Shown in pieces: positions 5,181 through 39,217 of a stretch of 64,000 nucleotides of DNA. The position numbers were made by a program, and so were the translations under genes. Within the stretch, counting starts at the first letter, position 1, and every line of letters begins with the position of its first letter. The notes beneath the pieces are model-generated. The model was not told the DNA's origin. It was given only the letters and a program-made list of their open reading frames with translations, and did not search any database. Origin of the DNA: Halosimplex rubrum (GTDB taxonomy: Archaea; Halobacteriota; Halobacteria; Halobacteriales; Haloarculaceae); assembly GCF_013415885.1 (NCBI RefSeq), contig NZ_CP058910.1:186001-250000 (forward strand), read 5' to 3'.

Positions 5181-6290
5181 TCACTCGACAGCCACGGGTT
5201 CGCCCCGCTCGGCCGACTCGTAGATCGCCTCGACGATGGCGACGGCCTTCCGGGCCTCGGGGCCGTCGAGCATGAACGGCTCGCCGCTCGCGCGGGCGTC
5301 GAGGAACTCGCGGACGTTGGGGAGTTCGAGCGGGTTCGGCTCGTCGGCGCCCGCGTCCGGCCCGGAGAAGCGCTCGCGCGTCGCCTCGTCGGTCTCGCGC
5401 TCCTCGCGGAACGTCCACGTCGTCAGCTCCTCGCCGCGGATCTCCGCGGAGCCGTCCCTCCCGCCGAGTTCGTACCGTATCTCGCCGCCGGGGTAGGTCG
5501 CCGTCGTCGCGAGCAGTTGGCCGAGCGTCCCGTCGCGGTAGCGCAGCGTCGCGACGGCGGCGTCCTCCACGGCGAGGTCGGCGTCGTGGCCGCGGACGCC
5601 GGTGAACGCCGACACCTCGGCGACGGGGTTCTCGTCGGGGTCTATATCCATCCCGGCGCCGGCGATCCACTGGATCGCGTCGACGCTGTGGATGGCCTGG
5701 CTCATGACCGCGCCGCCGCCCGCGACCGCGGGGTCGGCCTGCCAGGTCCCGTCGTAGTAGCCGTCGTCGCGCCACCACGGGAGCGCGGCGCTGGCGACCG
5801 CCAGCGACCCGAACCGCCCCTCGGCGACGGCCTCGCGGACGGTCCGGACCACCGGTTTGTACCGCCGCTGGAAGACGCCGCCGAGCCGGATCCCCGCCGC
5901 CTCGGCCGCGTCGATCAGCCGGTCGATCCGTTCGGTCGTGGTCTCCAGGGGCTTCTCGCAGAACACGTCGACGCCGCGGTCGGCCGCCGCGAGCGCCGGG
6001 TCGAGGTGCGCCCCGCTCGGGGTGCAGACGTCGAGTACGTCGGGCTCGACCGAGTCGAGCATCGCCGACACGTCGAGATACGGGTCGCAGTCGTGTTCGT
6101 CGGCGAACGACCGCACGCGCTCGTCGTCGCGGCTCGCGGTTTCACCGCTCGCTCCGTTCGGGGACTCGCTTCGCTCGTCTCCGCGGCCCGCGCAGGCGAC
6201 GACCGCGGCGTCGTCTAGCTGTTCGTAGGCGCGCATGTGGGTCTCGGCGGCGCTACCGACGCCGACGACGGCGATCCGGTGGGTGGGCAT
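5181..6290 (-). CDS. Gfo/Idh/MocA family NAD(P)-dependent oxidoreductase
   Basis: 369 residues from the ATG at 6290 (MPTHRIAVVGVGSAAETH). The N-terminal Rossmann fold has GVGSAAETH as dinucleotide loop. The family's EKPLETT stretch (catalytic-site Lys) is at about residues 117-123, and the C-terminal GFO_IDH_MocA sheet domain starts after about 130 (SLAVASAALPWW). Members oxidise or reduce sugars, inositols and related polyols; the substrate here is unknown. Residues 37-54 form an unusual in-frame insertion in the loop after the second strand, where family members run directly from the strand into the V-SFA-EH helix. Confidence 0.9.
   Translation of the reverse strand: MPTHRIAVVGVGSAAETHMRAYEQLDDAAVVACAGRGDERSESPNGASGETASRDDERVRSFADEHDCDPYLDVSAMLDSVEPDVLDVCTPSGAHLDPALAAADRGVDVFCEKPLETTTERIDRLIDAAEAAGIRLGGVFQRRYKPVVRTVREAVAEGRFGSLAVASAALPWWRDDGYYDGTWQADPAVAGGGAVMSQAIHSVDAIQWIAGAGMDIDPDENPVAEVSAFTGVRGHDADLAVEDAAVATLRYRDGTLGQLLATTATYPGGEIRYELGGRDGSAEIRGEELTTWTFREERETDEATRERFSGPDAGADEPNPLELPNVREFLDARASGEPFMLDGPEARKAVAIVEAIYESAERGEPVAVE
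6118..6187 (-). repeat. 54-bp in-frame mini-insertion (ASGETASR type) in the oxidoreductase gene
   Basis: Two 16-base direct repeats, 6118-6133 and 6172-6187, match at 14 of 16 positions and lie 54 bases apart. Between them lies sequence coding for residues 37-54 of the protein, ending in ASGETASR. Bases 6127-6152 are identical to bases 33971-33996 inside nadC, in the same reading frame. The core GCGGTGAAACCGC can fold as a hairpin. The direct repeats look like a target duplication or a slippage scar. Confidence 0.75.
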
Positions 6291-6366
6291 GGGCGAACGG
6301 ACGGGCAACGGCGGGAAAAAGGCGCGGGTCGGGGGAACCGGGACCGACGAGTTCGACCGCGGCGAA

Positions 6367-20384: not shown

Positions 20385-20442
20385 GGATCGGCTGTGGGCG
20401 TCCCCGCACCTAAGCGTGTGTGATACTCGGGACGATACCGGT

Positions 20443-20911
20443 CAGTACGTGGTGTTCGTTTGTCGGTGGTTTCTGTTCGATTCGGTGTGGAAGGAAGTGA
20501 GTCAGGAGTGGCCGAAGGAGACAGCAAGCGCCGAAAGCCCTCGGCTCGCTCGCGGGCGCTGTGCGACATATCCTCGCTTCGCTCGGATAGGGGTCGCGCA
20601 GCGCCCGCCACCGCGCCTCGCCTTTTCAATCCACCAGGAGACAGCACAGCACCCCGGGCAGCCACACACCTCCCCAGCCGACTGCGGTGTCTGCGGGCGG
20701 CCCGCGAGCCGCCCGCATGGCCCGAGGGAGCTTCGCTCCCTCGCTGCTCGCTAGCGCTGCGCACCTCGTCCACTGTCAGAGCACGCTCTGACAGGCCTTC
20801 GTTCACACGTTCACAAAGACCTCGCACGGTGCTGTCGCGCGGCCCTCACCGTGTTCGGGCACGCTCGACAGCGCGCGCCACGGTGGATCGATCAGTCCAT
20901 CACCTGTACCG
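20443..20911 (+). repeat. 469-bp hairpin-rich intergenic element, copy A
   Basis: Nearly identical to 38635-39103: constant offset of 18192 bases, no indels, five mismatches that I count in the 450-base core plus a few at the ends. Ends are CAGTAC (left) and GTACCG (right), close to an inverted pair. Internal perfect hairpins include CTGTCAGAGC/GCTCTGACAG (20773-20794, 10-base arms), CGAGGGAGC/GCTCCCTCG (20723-20743) and GCGGGCGGC/GCCGCCCGC (20693-20716). No protein is supported in any frame. Confidence 0.9.
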
Positions 20912-33483: not shown

Positions 33484-34362
33484 TCACCCCGTCCGGAAGG
33501 ACAGATCGAGCGTCGGCGCCGAGTGCGTCAAACTTCCCATCGAGATCACGTCGACGCCGGTCGCGGCGTAGTCGGGCACGGTCTCGACGGTGATCCCACC
33601 CGAGGCCTCGGCCAGCACCTCCCGACCCAGGTCGTCGGCCGCCGTCCGCAACAGGTCGACCGCCTCGGCGGTCGTCTCGGGGTCCATGTTGTCCAGCAGG
33701 ACGATGTCGGCGCCGGCTTCGGCGGCGCGGGGGGCCTGCTCGACCGTCTCGACCTCGACCTCGACCTTCGTGGCGAACGACGCCCGTTCGCGGAAGTGCT
33801 CGACGGCCGGTTCGAGGCCCATCTCGGCGACGTGGTTGTCCTTGACCATCACCATGTGCGACAGATCGAGGCGGTGGGTGTCGCCGCCACCGGCGACGAC
33901 GGCCCGCTTCTCGACGCCCCGCAGTCCGGGCGTCGTCTTGCGGGTGCCGGCGACGCGTACGTCGTCGCTCTCGCGGCTCGCGGTTTCACCGCTCGCATCG
34001 CCCGAGGTCTCCCATCGGTCGATCTCGCGAGCGGCGTCCACTGCGCGTCGCGTCTTCGTCGCGACACCGGAGGCGTGGCCCGCGATATTGACGGCCACCC
34101 GCTCGCCGCGCAGCACCTCGCGAGCGGAGCCCTCGACTTCGAGGACGGTGTCGCCGGCGTCGATGCGGTCGCCGGCGGCCGTGCTGTCGACGACTTCGAC
34201 GCCGAGGTACTCGAAGACGGCCCGGGCGGCGTCGAGGCCGGCGACGACGCCGGCCTCCTTGGCGACGAGGCGACCGGTCGTCCGGCCGGGCACCTGATTC
34301 GTCACGTCGTGGTGGCCGACGTCCTCGCGGAGCCACGTCTCGATCTTCGAATCGGGGATCAT
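33484..34362 (-). CDS. nadC: nicotinate-nucleotide pyrophosphorylase (carboxylating)
   Basis: 292 residues. REDVGHHDVTN (N-terminal), NIAGHASGVATKTRRAVDAA, GTRKTTPGLRGVEKRAV (phosphoribosyl/quinolinate-binding Arg/Lys), HMVMVKDNHVAE, VEVEVETVEQAP and DIVLLDNMDPE are all canonical NadC motifs. The enzyme joins quinolinate and PRPP, releasing CO2, to give nicotinate mononucleotide. Last of nadA-nadB-nadC, 15 bases after nadB. Residues 113-130 are an in-frame insertion between the ATKTRR helix and GTRKTTPG, absent from ordinary NadC. Confidence 0.95.
   Translation of the reverse strand: MIPDSKIETWLREDVGHHDVTNQVPGRTTGRLVAKEAGVVAGLDAARAVFEYLGVEVVDSTAAGDRIDAGDTVLEVEGSAREVLRGERVAVNIAGHASGVATKTRRAVDAAREIDRWETSGDASGETASRESDDVRVAGTRKTTPGLRGVEKRAVVAGGGDTHRLDLSHMVMVKDNHVAEMGLEPAVEHFRERASFATKVEVEVETVEQAPRAAEAGADIVLLDNMDPETTAEAVDLLRTAADDLGREVLAEASGGITVETVPDYAATGVDVISMGSLTHSAPTLDLSFRTG
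33964..34029 (-). repeat. 54-bp in-frame mini-insertion (ASGETASR type) in nadC
   Basis: Twelve-base direct repeats at 33964-33975 and 34018-34029 match at 11 of 12 positions and are 54 bases apart, the same spacing as in the oxidoreductase gene at 6118-6187. The inserted residues end in ASGETASR. Bases 33971-33996 are identical to 6127-6152 in the same frame. The core can form a GCGGT-GAA-ACCGC hairpin. Confidence 0.75.
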
Positions 34363-34377: not shown

Positions 34378-35997
34378 TCAGTCGGCCCGCGAGGGCGCGG
34401 GCTCCTCGACGAGGTTGTGCGTCCCCACGGACTCGCCGTTCTCGGCGGCCGCCCGCGTCACGAGCAGCGCCGTCACGGAGGCGTGGCGGAGTTCGTACAG
34501 CGACCGCGCCGTGCGCGTCCGGACGTAGGCGTCGACCTCGCCTTTCAGCCGCCGGAGGACCGCCTGGGCGCGACCCAGGTCGTCGGGACTCCGGCGGAGG
34601 CCGACGTACTCGTCCATCGTGCGGCGCAGGCGGTGGAACTTCTCGCGGGCGAAGTTGTCCGGAAGTGCGGGGTCCCGGTCGAGGAGTTCGGGCGCCTCGA
34701 CGACCGCGGGGTCGAAGTCGGCGGCATCTTCGCCGGCCCGGAGGCCCCAGACGAGTCCCTCCAGCAGCGACGTGGAGGCCAGCCGGTTGGCGCCGTGGAC
34801 GCCGGTCCGGGAACACTCGCCGACGGCGTACAGCCGGTCGAGGGAGGCCCGACCGCGGGTGTCCACGTCGACGCCGCCACAGAGGAAGTGCTCGGCCGGG
34901 CCGACGGGGATGCCGGACTCCCAGTCGACGCCGCGGGCCTCGCACTTCTCGGCGAGGTCGGGAAACTCCCCGCCGAAGTCGAGCGGGCTCACGTCGAGGA
35001 CGACCTCGCCGGTCTCGTCGATCTCCGTCTGGACGGCCCGGGCGACCACGTCCCGGGGCGCGAGTTCGGCGTCAGCGTGGTAGTCGGGCATGAAGCGCTC
35101 GCCGTCACCGTTCAGGAGGTGGGCGCCCTCGCCGCGGACGGCCTCGCTGACGAGGAAGGGGCCGTCGTCGGGGTCGTCACCGGACTCGACGGGTTCACCG
35201 TCTCGTTTCGATGCGCTTCGCGCCTCGCTCCCGGGGTAGACGGTCGGGTGGAACTGGACGTACTCCATGTCCGCCACGTCGGCGCCGGCGAGCGCGGCCA
35301 TCGCGATGCCGTCACCCGTCGACCCGTCGGGGTTGGTCGACCGGGTGTACAGGTCGCCGATGCCGCCCGTCGCCAGCACCGTCGCGCCCGCGAAGGTGGG
35401 CGTGACGTCGCCCTCGCGTTCGAGCAGGGCACCGTGGACGCGGCCCTCGTGGGAGACGAGTTCGAGCGCCGCGGTGTCGTCGCGGACGGTCACGTCGTCG
35501 CGGTCGTCGAGGTAGTTGAGGAACGGCACGTGGATCGCCTTGCCGGTCGAGGCGTCGACGTGGAGGATCCGCGGCTCGTCGTGGGCGGCCTCGCGGCCGA
35601 AGTCGAACGCCTCGGCGTCGTCGGCGCTCGCTTCGGCGGCGCCCGCCTCGGTCTCGTCGCTCGTGTCGAACTCCACGCCGAGGGTGTCGACGAGCACCTC
35701 GGAGACGGCGTCGTTGGCCTCGTCGACGAGCACGTCGACCGCTTCCGGGTCCGCGGTGTCGGCACTGGCGGTCAGGATGTCTTCCTTGAACTGGTCGGGG
35801 TCGTCCCGAGAGACGGCGATACCGCCCTGGGCCCACCACGAAGACGCCCCTTCCGGCCGGGTGGCCTTCGTCGCGACGGTCACCTCGGCGCCCTCGCGGG
35901 CCGCCCCGAGCGCGGCGGCCAGCCCGGCGATGCCGGATCCGACCACGAGCACGTCCGTCGTGCGGTAGTCGTCGTAGTCTTCGAGTTCGGAAGTCAT
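34378..35997 (-). CDS. nadB: L-aspartate oxidase
   Basis: 539 residues from the ATG at 35997. The FAD GxGxxG motif is VVGSGIAGLAAALGA (about 17-31), followed by GASSWWAQGGIAV (substrate/FAD loop), MEYVQFHPT, HLLNGDGERFMPDY, CGGVDVDTRGRASLDRLYAVGECSRTGVHGANRLASTSLLEGLVWG, and the C-terminal helical domain. It oxidises L-aspartate to iminoaspartate for NadA. Its start overlaps the nadA stop (ATGA). A 20-odd-residue insertion between FHPTVYPG and FLVSEAVRGEG is unusual. Confidence 0.95.
   Translation of the reverse strand: MTSELEDYDDYRTTDVLVVGSGIAGLAAALGAAREGAEVTVATKATRPEGASSWWAQGGIAVSRDDPDQFKEDILTASADTADPEAVDVLVDEANDAVSEVLVDTLGVEFDTSDETEAGAAEASADDAEAFDFGREAAHDEPRILHVDASTGKAIHVPFLNYLDDRDDVTVRDDTAALELVSHEGRVHGALLEREGDVTPTFAGATVLATGGIGDLYTRSTNPDGSTGDGIAMAALAGADVADMEYVQFHPTVYPGSEARSASKRDGEPVESGDDPDDGPFLVSEAVRGEGAHLLNGDGERFMPDYHADAELAPRDVVARAVQTEIDETGEVVLDVSPLDFGGEFPDLAEKCEARGVDWESGIPVGPAEHFLCGGVDVDTRGRASLDRLYAVGECSRTGVHGANRLASTSLLEGLVWGLRAGEDAADFDPAVVEAPELLDRDPALPDNFAREKFHRLRRTMDEYVGLRRSPDDLGRAQAVLRRLKGEVDAYVRTRTARSLYELRHASVTALLVTRAAAENGESVGTHNLVEEPAPSRAD
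35168..35231 (-). repeat. in-frame hairpin-prone insertion in nadB
   Basis: The stretch codes for about SEARSASKRDGEPVESGDD, inserted where other L-aspartate oxidases go almost directly from FHPT to the FL-SEA-RGEG motif. Its layout (CGAAGCG, a CGAAAC word, then GACGGTGAACCCGTC, which can pair with itself) parallels the elements in nadC and the oxidoreductase gene, though the peptide differs and no clear flanking direct repeat is seen. Confidence 0.5.
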
Positions 35998-37118
35998 ATT
36001 TCGAGCATCCGGTCGAGGGCGACCTGCGCGAGCTCCTTCTCCTCCGGTGCGACCTCGATGACGTTGCGCTCGCGACCCGCGACGAGCTCCTCGAGCACCC
36101 ACGTCAGGTAGTTGGGGTCGATCTGGCGCATGGCGTTGCAGTCCATGCAGGCGTCGCCACAGAGGGGCAACACCTCCACGTCGGGGTGCCAGCGGTCGAG
36201 GTGCTTGGCGAGGTGGATCTCCGTGCCGATGGCCCAGGCGTCGCCGGGGTCGGCCTCCTCGACGACCTCGCAGATCGTCGCCGTCGAGCCGACCACGTCG
36301 GCGGCCTCGACGACCTCGCGGCGGCACTCGGGGTGGACGACGACGTTCGCGTCCGGGCGGCGCTCGCGCAGGTCTTCGATGTGGCTCTCGCTGAAGCGCT
36401 CGTGGACCTGGCAGTAGCCGTCCCAGAGGACGATGTCGTTCTGGACGACTTCCGCGGCGTCCTTGCCCTCGGGGTCCCACGGGTCCCACTCGGCGATCTC
36501 GTCTTCCATGCCGAGCCGGTAGGCCGTGTTCTCGCCGAGGTGCTTGTCGGGGAGAAAGAGGACCTTGTCGCCCTTCTCGAAGGCGTACTCGAAGGCCTTG
36601 TGGGCGTTCGAGGAGGTACAGACCAGCCCGCCCTGCTCGGCGCAGAAGGCCTTCAGGTCGGCGTAGCTGTTCATGTAGGTGATCGGGATGATCTCCTCGT
36701 CGGGCGCGGCGCCGGTGATCTCGGCCCACGCGGCGTCGACCTGCAGCGCCTCGGCCATCCCGGCCATCGGACACGAGGCCTCCATGCTCGGGAGGATCAC
36801 CGACTGAGAGTCGTCGGTGATGATGTCCGCCGACTCGGCCATGAACGTCACGCCGCCGAAGATGACGTAGTCGGCGTCCGCGTTCGCGGCTTCCTTCGAG
36901 AGCTGGTAGGAGTCGCCCACGAAGTCGGCGTGTTCGACGATCTCCCGGCGCTGGTAGTTGTGGCCGAGGATCACTACGTCGTCGCCGAGTTCGTCGAGCG
37001 CGGCCTCGATGCGCTCCGTGCGTTCGGCCTCGTCCAGATCGCGGTAGGCCGGCGGCAGCTGTTCCAGGTTGTCGTACTTGAAGAGACTGAGGTCAGTCTC
37101 GAACTGCGCTGTTTCCAT
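35994..37118 (-). CDS. nadA: quinolinate synthase
   Basis: 374 residues from the ATG at 37118; a GTG three codons earlier is possible. LGHNYQRREIVEHADFVGDSYQLSKEA is the N-terminal motif. Three conserved 4Fe-4S cysteines appear in EASCPMAGMA or the neighbouring YC-VHE stretch, HPECRREVVE and CGDACMDCNAMRQI. The enzyme condenses iminoaspartate with dihydroxyacetone phosphate to quinolinate. First gene of nadABC; start region preceded by an 8-base-arm inverted repeat that may control the operon. Confidence 0.95.
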   Translation of the reverse strand: METAQFETDLSLFKYDNLEQLPPAYRDLDEAERTERIEAALDELGDDVVILGHNYQRREIVEHADFVGDSYQLSKEAANADADYVIFGGVTFMAESADIITDDSQSVILPSMEASCPMAGMAEALQVDAAWAEITGAAPDEEIIPITYMNSYADLKAFCAEQGGLVCTSSNAHKAFEYAFEKGDKVLFLPDKHLGENTAYRLGMEDEIAEWDPWDPEGKDAAEVVQNDIVLWDGYCQVHERFSESHIEDLRERRPDANVVVHPECRREVVEAADVVGSTATICEVVEEADPGDAWAIGTEIHLAKHLDRWHPDVEVLPLCGDACMDCNAMRQIDPNYLTWVLEELVAGRERNVIEVAPEEKELAQVALDRMLEI

Positions 37119-37163
37119 TTCCGGCACGGGTGGTCACTTGGGTTGGCGATTCTATGGACCACC

Positions 37164-38616: not shown

Positions 38617-38634
38617 CAGGGAGTCGGTCGCGTT

Positions 38635-39103
38635 CAGTTCGTGGTGTTCGTTTGTCGGTGGTTTCTGTTCGATTCGGTGTGGAAGGAAGTGAGTCAGGAG
38701 TGGCCGAAGGAGACAGCAAGCGCCGAAAGCCCTCGGCTCGCTCGCGGGCGCTGTGCGACATATCCTCGCTTCGCTCGGATAGGGGTCGCGCAGCGCCCGC
38801 CACCGCGCCTCGCCCTTTCAATCCACCAGGAGACAGCACAGCACCCCGGGCAGCCACACACCTCCCCAGCCGACTGCGGTGTCTGCGGGCGGCCCGCGAG
38901 TCGCCCGCATGGCCCGAGGGAGCTTCGCTCCCTCGCTGCTCGCTAGCGCTGCGCTCCTCGTCCACTGTCAGAGCACGCTCTGACAGGCCTTCGTTCACAC
39001 GTTCACAAAGACCTCGCACGGTGCTGTCGCACGGCTCTCACCGTGTTCGGGCACGCTCGACAGCGCGCGCCACGGTGGATCGATCAGTCCATCTCGTGTA
39101 CTG
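38635..39103 (+). repeat. 469-bp hairpin-rich intergenic element, copy B
   Basis: Aligns to 20443-20911 end to end without gaps; internal mismatches to copy A are near 38817, 38901, 38955, 39031 and 39036. Its right end, GTACTG, is the perfect inverted partner of copy A's left end CAGTAC, while its own left end reads CAGTTC. The 9-base-arm hairpin of copy A at 20693 has one mismatch here. No gene is supported within it, and no flanking target duplication is visible. Confidence 0.9.
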
Positions 39104-39174
39104 AGCATCCGCGCGCCGGAGGCGCGCGGTTCCACGCGGCCGAACGGAGTGAGGCCGCGCCTTTTTCACCCATG
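39104..39174. other. stacked hairpins between repeat and hel308
   Basis: Two further inverted repeats follow copy B: CCGCGCGCC/GGCGCGCGG around 39109-39130 and GCGGCC/GGCCGC around 39136-39158, the latter ahead of a short T-run. No gene. They may be remnants of terminators or of other intergenic elements. Confidence 0.4.
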
Positions 39175-39217
39175 TTTTTTGCGAGGGGGTCGCCAGCGGC
39201 GACCCCCTCGCGAAAAA
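39175..39217. terminator. strong bidirectional terminator-like hairpin upstream of hel308
   Basis: Perfect 14-base arms GCGAGGGGGTCGCC (39181-39194) and GGCGACCCCCTCGC (39198-39211) with an AGC loop. T6 lies to the left and GAAAAA to the right, so a T-run follows the stem on either strand. It lies just before the TTTAAA promoter of hel308 and would insulate that gene from upstream transcription. Confidence 0.6.

Follow-up and report, generated by a model that had tools for sequence, protein, structure and literature searches.

An 18-residue insert in the NadC of Halosimplex rubrum as a probable copy of a small mobile element of Halobacteria

The NadC protein of Halosimplex rubrum contains 18 residues (112-129) that its relatives lack, which raises the question of whether a piece of DNA was inserted into the gene or whether a loop of the enzyme is simply variable in length. 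The original prediction, made for the 64,000-nt window considered here (the whole stretch of DNA that was analysed), held that about 18 residues had been added by an element flanked by direct repeats, and that an oxidoreductase gene elsewhere in the window carries the same element. The comparisons described below support this reading of insertion plus target duplication, and the extra residues are accounted for by a 45-bp element together with a 9-bp duplication.

The insert in nadC and other occupied sites

On the minus strand the nadC insert reads, 5' to 3', CGCGAGATC (left target copy), then the 45-bp element GACCGATGGGA-GACCTCG-GGCGAT-GCGAGCGGTGAAACCGCGAGC, then CGCGAGAGC (right target copy), so that the protein around it is ATKTRRAVDAA-REIDRWETSGDASGETASRES-DDVRVAGTRKTTPG (Table 1). 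The 12-base direct repeats noticed originally are indeed present (CGCGAGATCGAC, 34029-34018, and CGCGAGAGCGAC, 33975-33964; 11 of 12 bases matching, 54 bases apart), but the true duplication is 9 bp long, the last three bases (GAC) being an accidental match to the first bases of the element. The two 9-bp copies agree at 8 of 9 bases. The ends of the element were inferred from the empty-site comparisons at IleRS and the oxidoreductase; GAGAGCGACGACGT of the right target copy occurs also in a relative devoid of the element (L012).

Table 1. Positions in the window of the nad genes and of the two inserted elements with their parts
Feature	Position	Strand	Remarks
nadC, quinolinate phosphoribosyltransferase, 292 aa	33484..34362	-	TIGR00078 320 bits vs 198 cut-off; QRPTase_N + QRPTase_C
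nadB	34378-36774		adjoins nadC
nadA	35994-37127		beside nadC/nadB
Inserted element in nadC, 45 bp	33976..34020	-	codes DRWETSGDASGETAS (residues 115-129)
Left copy of 9-bp target duplication in nadC	34021..34029	-	CGCGAGATC; last 7 bases = 5' arm of hairpin 1
Right copy of target duplication in nadC	33967..33975	-	CGCGAGAGC
Hairpin 1, 3' arm	34003..34009	-	GACCTCG; 6/7 pairs with 34021-34027; covariance-model alignment; arm covaries across copies
Hairpin 1, loop	34010-34020	-	GACCGATGGGA
Conserved core with hairpin 2	33976..33996	-	GCGGT-GAA-ACCGC; coding ASGETAS
Sister element in Gfo/Idh/MocA oxidoreductase gene (about 5181-6291)	6132..6176	-
Left target copy in oxidoreductase gene	6177..6185	-	CGCGGAGAC; diverged from CGCGACGAC (kept in G007)
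Right target copy in oxidoreductase gene	6123..6131	-	CGCGACGAC

A NadC match was obtained in 45 of the 59 genomes searched, and 30 loci, including the window's own copy, were examined. Uninterrupted versions of the gene, as expected from the original prediction, were found in 28 of the 29 relatives. The remaining one, the congener G001, has a decayed insert at this position that is still open to reading, indicating that the insertion was inherited within part of the genus. Relative to the nearest empty relatives NadC has gained 51 bp rather than 54, because this loop naturally differs in length by one residue to several (by at least three among the empty relatives). PDB sequence alignments show a gap at the insert region, immediately ahead of the TRKTTPG motif, and the Pfam matches place the insert between the N and C domains; on these alignments and domain matches alone, it is predicted to lie in a surface loop. 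A single-sequence AlphaFold model of NadC was too poor for placing it (mean pLDDT 42).

The oxidoreductase gene displays the same arrangement of target copy, element and target copy (6185-6123), with the same period of 54 (6132-6185). The original suggestion that the two sites share an identical core holds for 21 nt (GCGAGCGGTGAAACCGCGAGC), the rest of the 54 bp being similar only. Of eleven loci taken for comparison, five, all from matches of lower rank, lacked a fit to the motif; in the others the site is filled in G000 and G007 and empty in G003, G004, G005 and G006. The target is single in the empty G004 (GGC-CGCGACGAC-GGGCGC), while the filled G007 reads GGC-CGCGACGAC-(45 bp)-CGCGACGAC-GAACGC, a gain of exactly 54 bp. 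An equally clean comparison is provided by a genus belonging to the window's family, whose IleRS site is empty in 25 of 30 genomes and filled in 5; CGCGAGGGC stands exactly on both sides in G365 and G121, is single in empty species such as G297, and the gain is again 54 bp. Insertion with an exact 9-bp target duplication is thus observed at two sites.

Other hosts give a less uniform picture. TrpA is filled in 7 of 30 genomes with gains of 36 to 51 bp (45 bp in G152, with a repeat of only 5-6 bases), and gains of 45 bp were found in MoeA, empty in all seven congeners, and in ribonucleotide reductase (RNR), empty in all three congeneric orthologues (the count covers one of the two RNR sites, with L004 left out). 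Relatives of the imidazolonepropionase also lack the core, but the loop is too variable for a clean reading; at L301 the left arm CGCGAGGCCGAC is there without the element. On a 30-species tree built without the inserts their presence is sporadic, 5 changes being needed for the 5 species filled at IleRS and 4 for the 7 filled at TrpA. Near-identical inserts are nevertheless shared by non-sister species (IleRS of G365 and G121; TrpA of G152 versus G187 and G121), which suggests transfer by recombination or precise loss besides new insertion.

Two further observations concern these genes. Within one genus the IleRS loop carries at least four different inserts, and the genus of the window contributes a further one (L394); with different inserts across several genera (L394; L305-L308; L315; L108), this loop is a hot spot. 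A Halobacteriales MAG (L147, near 4737) has a nadB with an in-frame copy of the core, the adjoining nadC being empty.

Family size, hairpins and reading frame

Four exact copies of the 21-nt core and two near copies are present in the 4.48-Mb genome of origin (reversed control 0), all in one reading frame; their hosts are the oxidoreductase, NadC, two ribonucleotide reductase genes, a MoeA-type gene and an imidazolonepropionase. The exact core was detected in 115 of 391 Halobacteria genomes (reversed control 0), and scanning one genome per species yielded at least 120 stretches, which, among the 80 matches listed, were all haloarchaeal. A covariance model of the family retrieves the nadC and oxidoreductase copies in the window with E about 6e-17, although both were among its 16 training rows. 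Chance or low complexity is ruled out by the empty reversed controls and these E-values. A viral origin was considered and rejected, the exact core being found in 0 viral contigs and no viral NadC being found.

Copy number is uneven between sister species. The 54-nt model, with E values up to 0.1 accepted, gave 73 matches in the genome of origin and 86, 79, 63, 47, 41, 9 and 9 in seven congeners, among 150 candidates scored per genome; genomes of one genus therefore differ nearly tenfold (9 to 86), the weak matches being uncertain. A model of the 3-nt-loop form gave 45 matches in the genome of origin at E up to 1, overlapping the former set. No Rfam 15 family matched over the element in 14 loci, tRNAs being recognised beside some copies. 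Five of these 14 loci (L064, L068, L084, L100 and L117, each near position 1500) have a tRNA gene within about 60-200 nt of the element, and intergenic copies may favour such neighbourhoods. The same search returned a guanidine-II riboswitch-like match in L002 (2517-2566; 28.6 bits against the Rfam threshold of 32), probably by chance. Elsewhere in the window, a hairpin-1-like match on the plus strand (39133-39186; E 5.6e-5) has an 11-nt loop and a poor second hairpin and is perhaps a decayed copy. The window also holds a 300-nt direct repeat whose two copies (20439-20738 and 38631-38930) are 99% identical and separated by 18 kb; together with weaker, partial copies near 1804-2072 it is possibly another repeat family.

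The original prediction that repeats differ from site to site, as target duplications would, was borne out in the subfamily with the 11-nt loop. After removal of near-duplicates 156 of 193 distinct copies were retained, and in the 31 copies with an 11-nt loop and a 6-nt linker the 12 bases at -33 were compared with the 12 bases after the core. Identity was 0.594 within copies versus 0.493 between copies, a value reached in 0 of 5000 shuffles, and the excess persisted without four tandem copies (0.546 versus 0.467; 0 of 5000) and disappeared at other offsets. The 3-nt-loop subfamily gave no consistent excess in six registers, one being matched by 12 of 5000 shuffles and another falling below nearly all of them. 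In L043 and L153 hairpin 1 is arrayed in tandem with a period of 54; slippage or unequal exchange may have amplified it there.

Hairpin 1 consists of a 7-8-bp stem and a loop of either 3 nt or 11 nt (GA-NN-NNN-NN-GA). In 30 copies picked by loop alone, 85.2% of the cells are paired versus 63.6% after shuffling, with a covariation score of 0.478 versus 0.145 for shuffled and 0.06-0.10 for slid partners; the 3-nt-loop set scores 0.336 versus 0.061, its copies having been picked partly by pairing. The search pattern prescribed hairpin 2, which does not vary in the copies so found; other copies in the genome of origin have an altered stem (e.g. CGGGC-AAC-GCCCG in L399). Where the insertion has the 54-bp form, hairpin 1 takes its 5' arm from the left target copy. 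The idea that the left repeat is a hairpin arm only was dropped, as the empty IleRS and oxidoreductase sites reveal it to be the target copy too.

The right copy, on the host side, also fits the 3' arm of its own element (0.582 versus 0.464 across copies; 0 of 2000 shuffles as high). This fit may reflect pairing-guided insertion or be the trace of later compensation, and the two are not distinguished. That the element picks its target by base pairing, with an internal arm complementary to the 9-bp site and the duplicated target completing the hairpin, is offered as a tentative idea that we doubt more than we believe. Should the fit reflect insertion and not compensation, it would amount to a structure-completing, guide-paired insertion of a 45-bp DNA; we know of no integration rule of this kind.

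Of 115 copies, a codon-usage classifier assigned 49 clearly to genes, and all 49 are read in the ASGETAS frame; the remaining 66 are intergenic or unclear, some being genic by eye (e.g. L001). Stops alone do not explain this single frame, since stops are also missing from one other sense frame and from three antisense frames. Part of the bias could come from the target motif: in 22 genes of the window, CGCGAG falls in the ASGETAS frame 60 out of 132 times. Given that the motif favours this frame but not exclusively, a tolerable peptide has probably been selected for. Of the 36 genic copies whose hairpin was recognised, 35 have a linker of 3 or 6 nt, compared with 20 of 39 others.

Explanations for the spread of the insert

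We consider it probable that the nadC insert belongs to a family of non-autonomous mobile elements of Halobacteria, comparable to the palindromic coding elements that lie in frame in Rickettsia genes. An element of the NadC subtype (45 bp) would enter sites like CGCGAGNNC and duplicate 9 bp, whereby the gene gains 54 bp and the frame is kept. The left target copy would then pair with the arm inside the element, completing hairpin 1, the core would form hairpin 2, and genic copies would be retained only in the sense frame reading ...ASGETAS, a small, polar, unstructured-looking peptide, so that the host enzyme presumably tolerates the insert. It is inferred rather than shown that a trans-acting transposase or recombinase moves the element, that this enzyme recognises the hairpins and that the host enzymes stay active; no movement was observed and no mobilising enzyme has been identified. 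Neither a transposase with matching ends nor, by eye, terminal inverted repeats on the 45-bp element were found. We also count against this explanation the 51-bp gain in NadC, the one mismatch in nine between its target copies, and the 3-nt-loop subfamily without clear duplication.

Could the hairpins have spread without any dedicated mobility, by template switching and homologous recombination between haloarchaea that exchange DNA? The same-site identical or near-identical IleRS and TrpA inserts in the non-sister species named above fit transfer by homologous recombination, and the complementarity of target and element arm and tandem 54-bp copies such as L043 point the same way; two unrelated sites where 9 bp are duplicated exactly, and one genome with the same core in six unrelated places, speak against it, and we regard it as unlikely, though to be kept in mind. 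Rather unlikely, too, is a REP/REPIN-type element moved through single-stranded hairpins by a Y1 transposase (IS200/IS605, RAYT), despite the short, many-copy hairpins with small GNA-type loops both between and within genes, and despite the Y1 transposases that six of the eight genomes of the genus possess. Y1 transposition is not known to duplicate its target, yet a 9-bp duplication is seen at IleRS and the oxidoreductase; the GTAG/CGTC tag is absent, by eye, from the consensus and the copy ends; and gene counts do not track matches in the eight genomes (G006, 47 matches and no Y1 gene; G001, 71% complete, 79 and none; G004, 9 and two). A Y1/RAYT mobiliser is hence not supported, copy number not following Y1 genes in these eight genomes, although this comparison does not exclude past action in trans.

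It is also conceivable that the insert is no tolerated mobile DNA but a selected functional peptide or RNA module, such as a halophilic surface loop or an mRNA structure. The single frame of the clearly genic copies, the compensatory changes that preserve stem pairing and the open though decayed NadC insert of G001 would all be expected of such a module, which sits poorly with the sporadic occurrence among close species (IleRS 5/30, TrpA 7/30), the unrelated functions of the hosts and the numerous intergenic copies; we hold it to be very improbable. Ordinary variation in NadC loop length, unrelated to the other gene, can invoke the differences seen among empty relatives, but core and hairpins recur in unrelated genes with the E-values given above, and the copies of the core in the genome of origin and in 115 of 391 genomes, together with the oxidoreductase empty/filled pair, refute it; we attach next to no credence to it. 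A family of mobile elements that duplicates its target thus remains our preferred reading.

Relation to known systems

On this reading, essential enzymes throughout an archaeal class repeatedly acquire the same peptide from a small DNA: their genes are hit by a 45-base hairpin element and are apparently unbroken (host activity being inferred), with a short soft peptide added each time. Haloarchaeal hosts are genetically tractable, which, with clean empty/filled pairs, an exact 9-bp duplication and many copies, makes both element movement and gene tolerance testable. In-frame palindromic elements in Rickettsia have reportedly been known since 2000, without their insertion mechanism having been shown.

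We found no description of the haloarchaeal family, its target duplication or its hairpin completion in the open-licence literature. RepRanger seeks archaeal REPs in intergenic regions, and no word beginning 'Halo' occurs in its main text (PMC12306157). REPs are short high-copy hairpins, some of them inside ORFs, and different REPs occupy about the same recB site in Xanthomonas, according to the accessible portion of that source (PMC3733652). The present element resembles REP/REPIN-RAYT systems, to the extent that this source documents them, in being a short high-copy hairpin that is partly intragenic, but differs in lacking, by eye, the GTAG/CGTC tag, in its target duplication and in the absence of a correlation with Y1 genes in eight genomes. 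MITEs are likewise non-autonomous and of high copy number, and their criterion of a target duplication is met; in contrast, inspection of the 45-bp element by eye showed no terminal inverted repeats, and a parent insertion sequence was not found, without a systematic scan for insertion sequences.

The closest counterparts are in-frame elements of other lineages. The Rickettsia RPEs are, in the sections available of a review, short hairpin-forming DNAs that occur between genes as well as in frame within conserved protein-coding genes; they are 105-146 bp long, with terminal inverted repeats and a target duplication listed as '?' (PMC2229807). So far as those sections go, the haloarchaeal repeat is of the same kind, being in frame in conserved genes, with empty sites in relatives and a palindromic structure with conserved pairing; it does not meet the length criterion of 105-146 bp and is distinguished by its 45 bp with a demonstrated 9-bp duplication, its two separate hairpins and its occurrence in another domain of life. 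In-frame 'selfish' coding elements in housekeeping genes are also reported, in the accessible parts of the source, from Wolbachia and Methanocaldococcus jannaschii (PMC2996958), the latter again an archaeal host but a methanogen, the present family having been found in Halobacteria. The kind of element is therefore already known from Rickettsia, Wolbachia and M. jannaschii, and what is new here, as far as the open-licence literature goes, is the haloarchaeal family, its 9-bp target duplication and the completion of a hairpin by the duplicated target.
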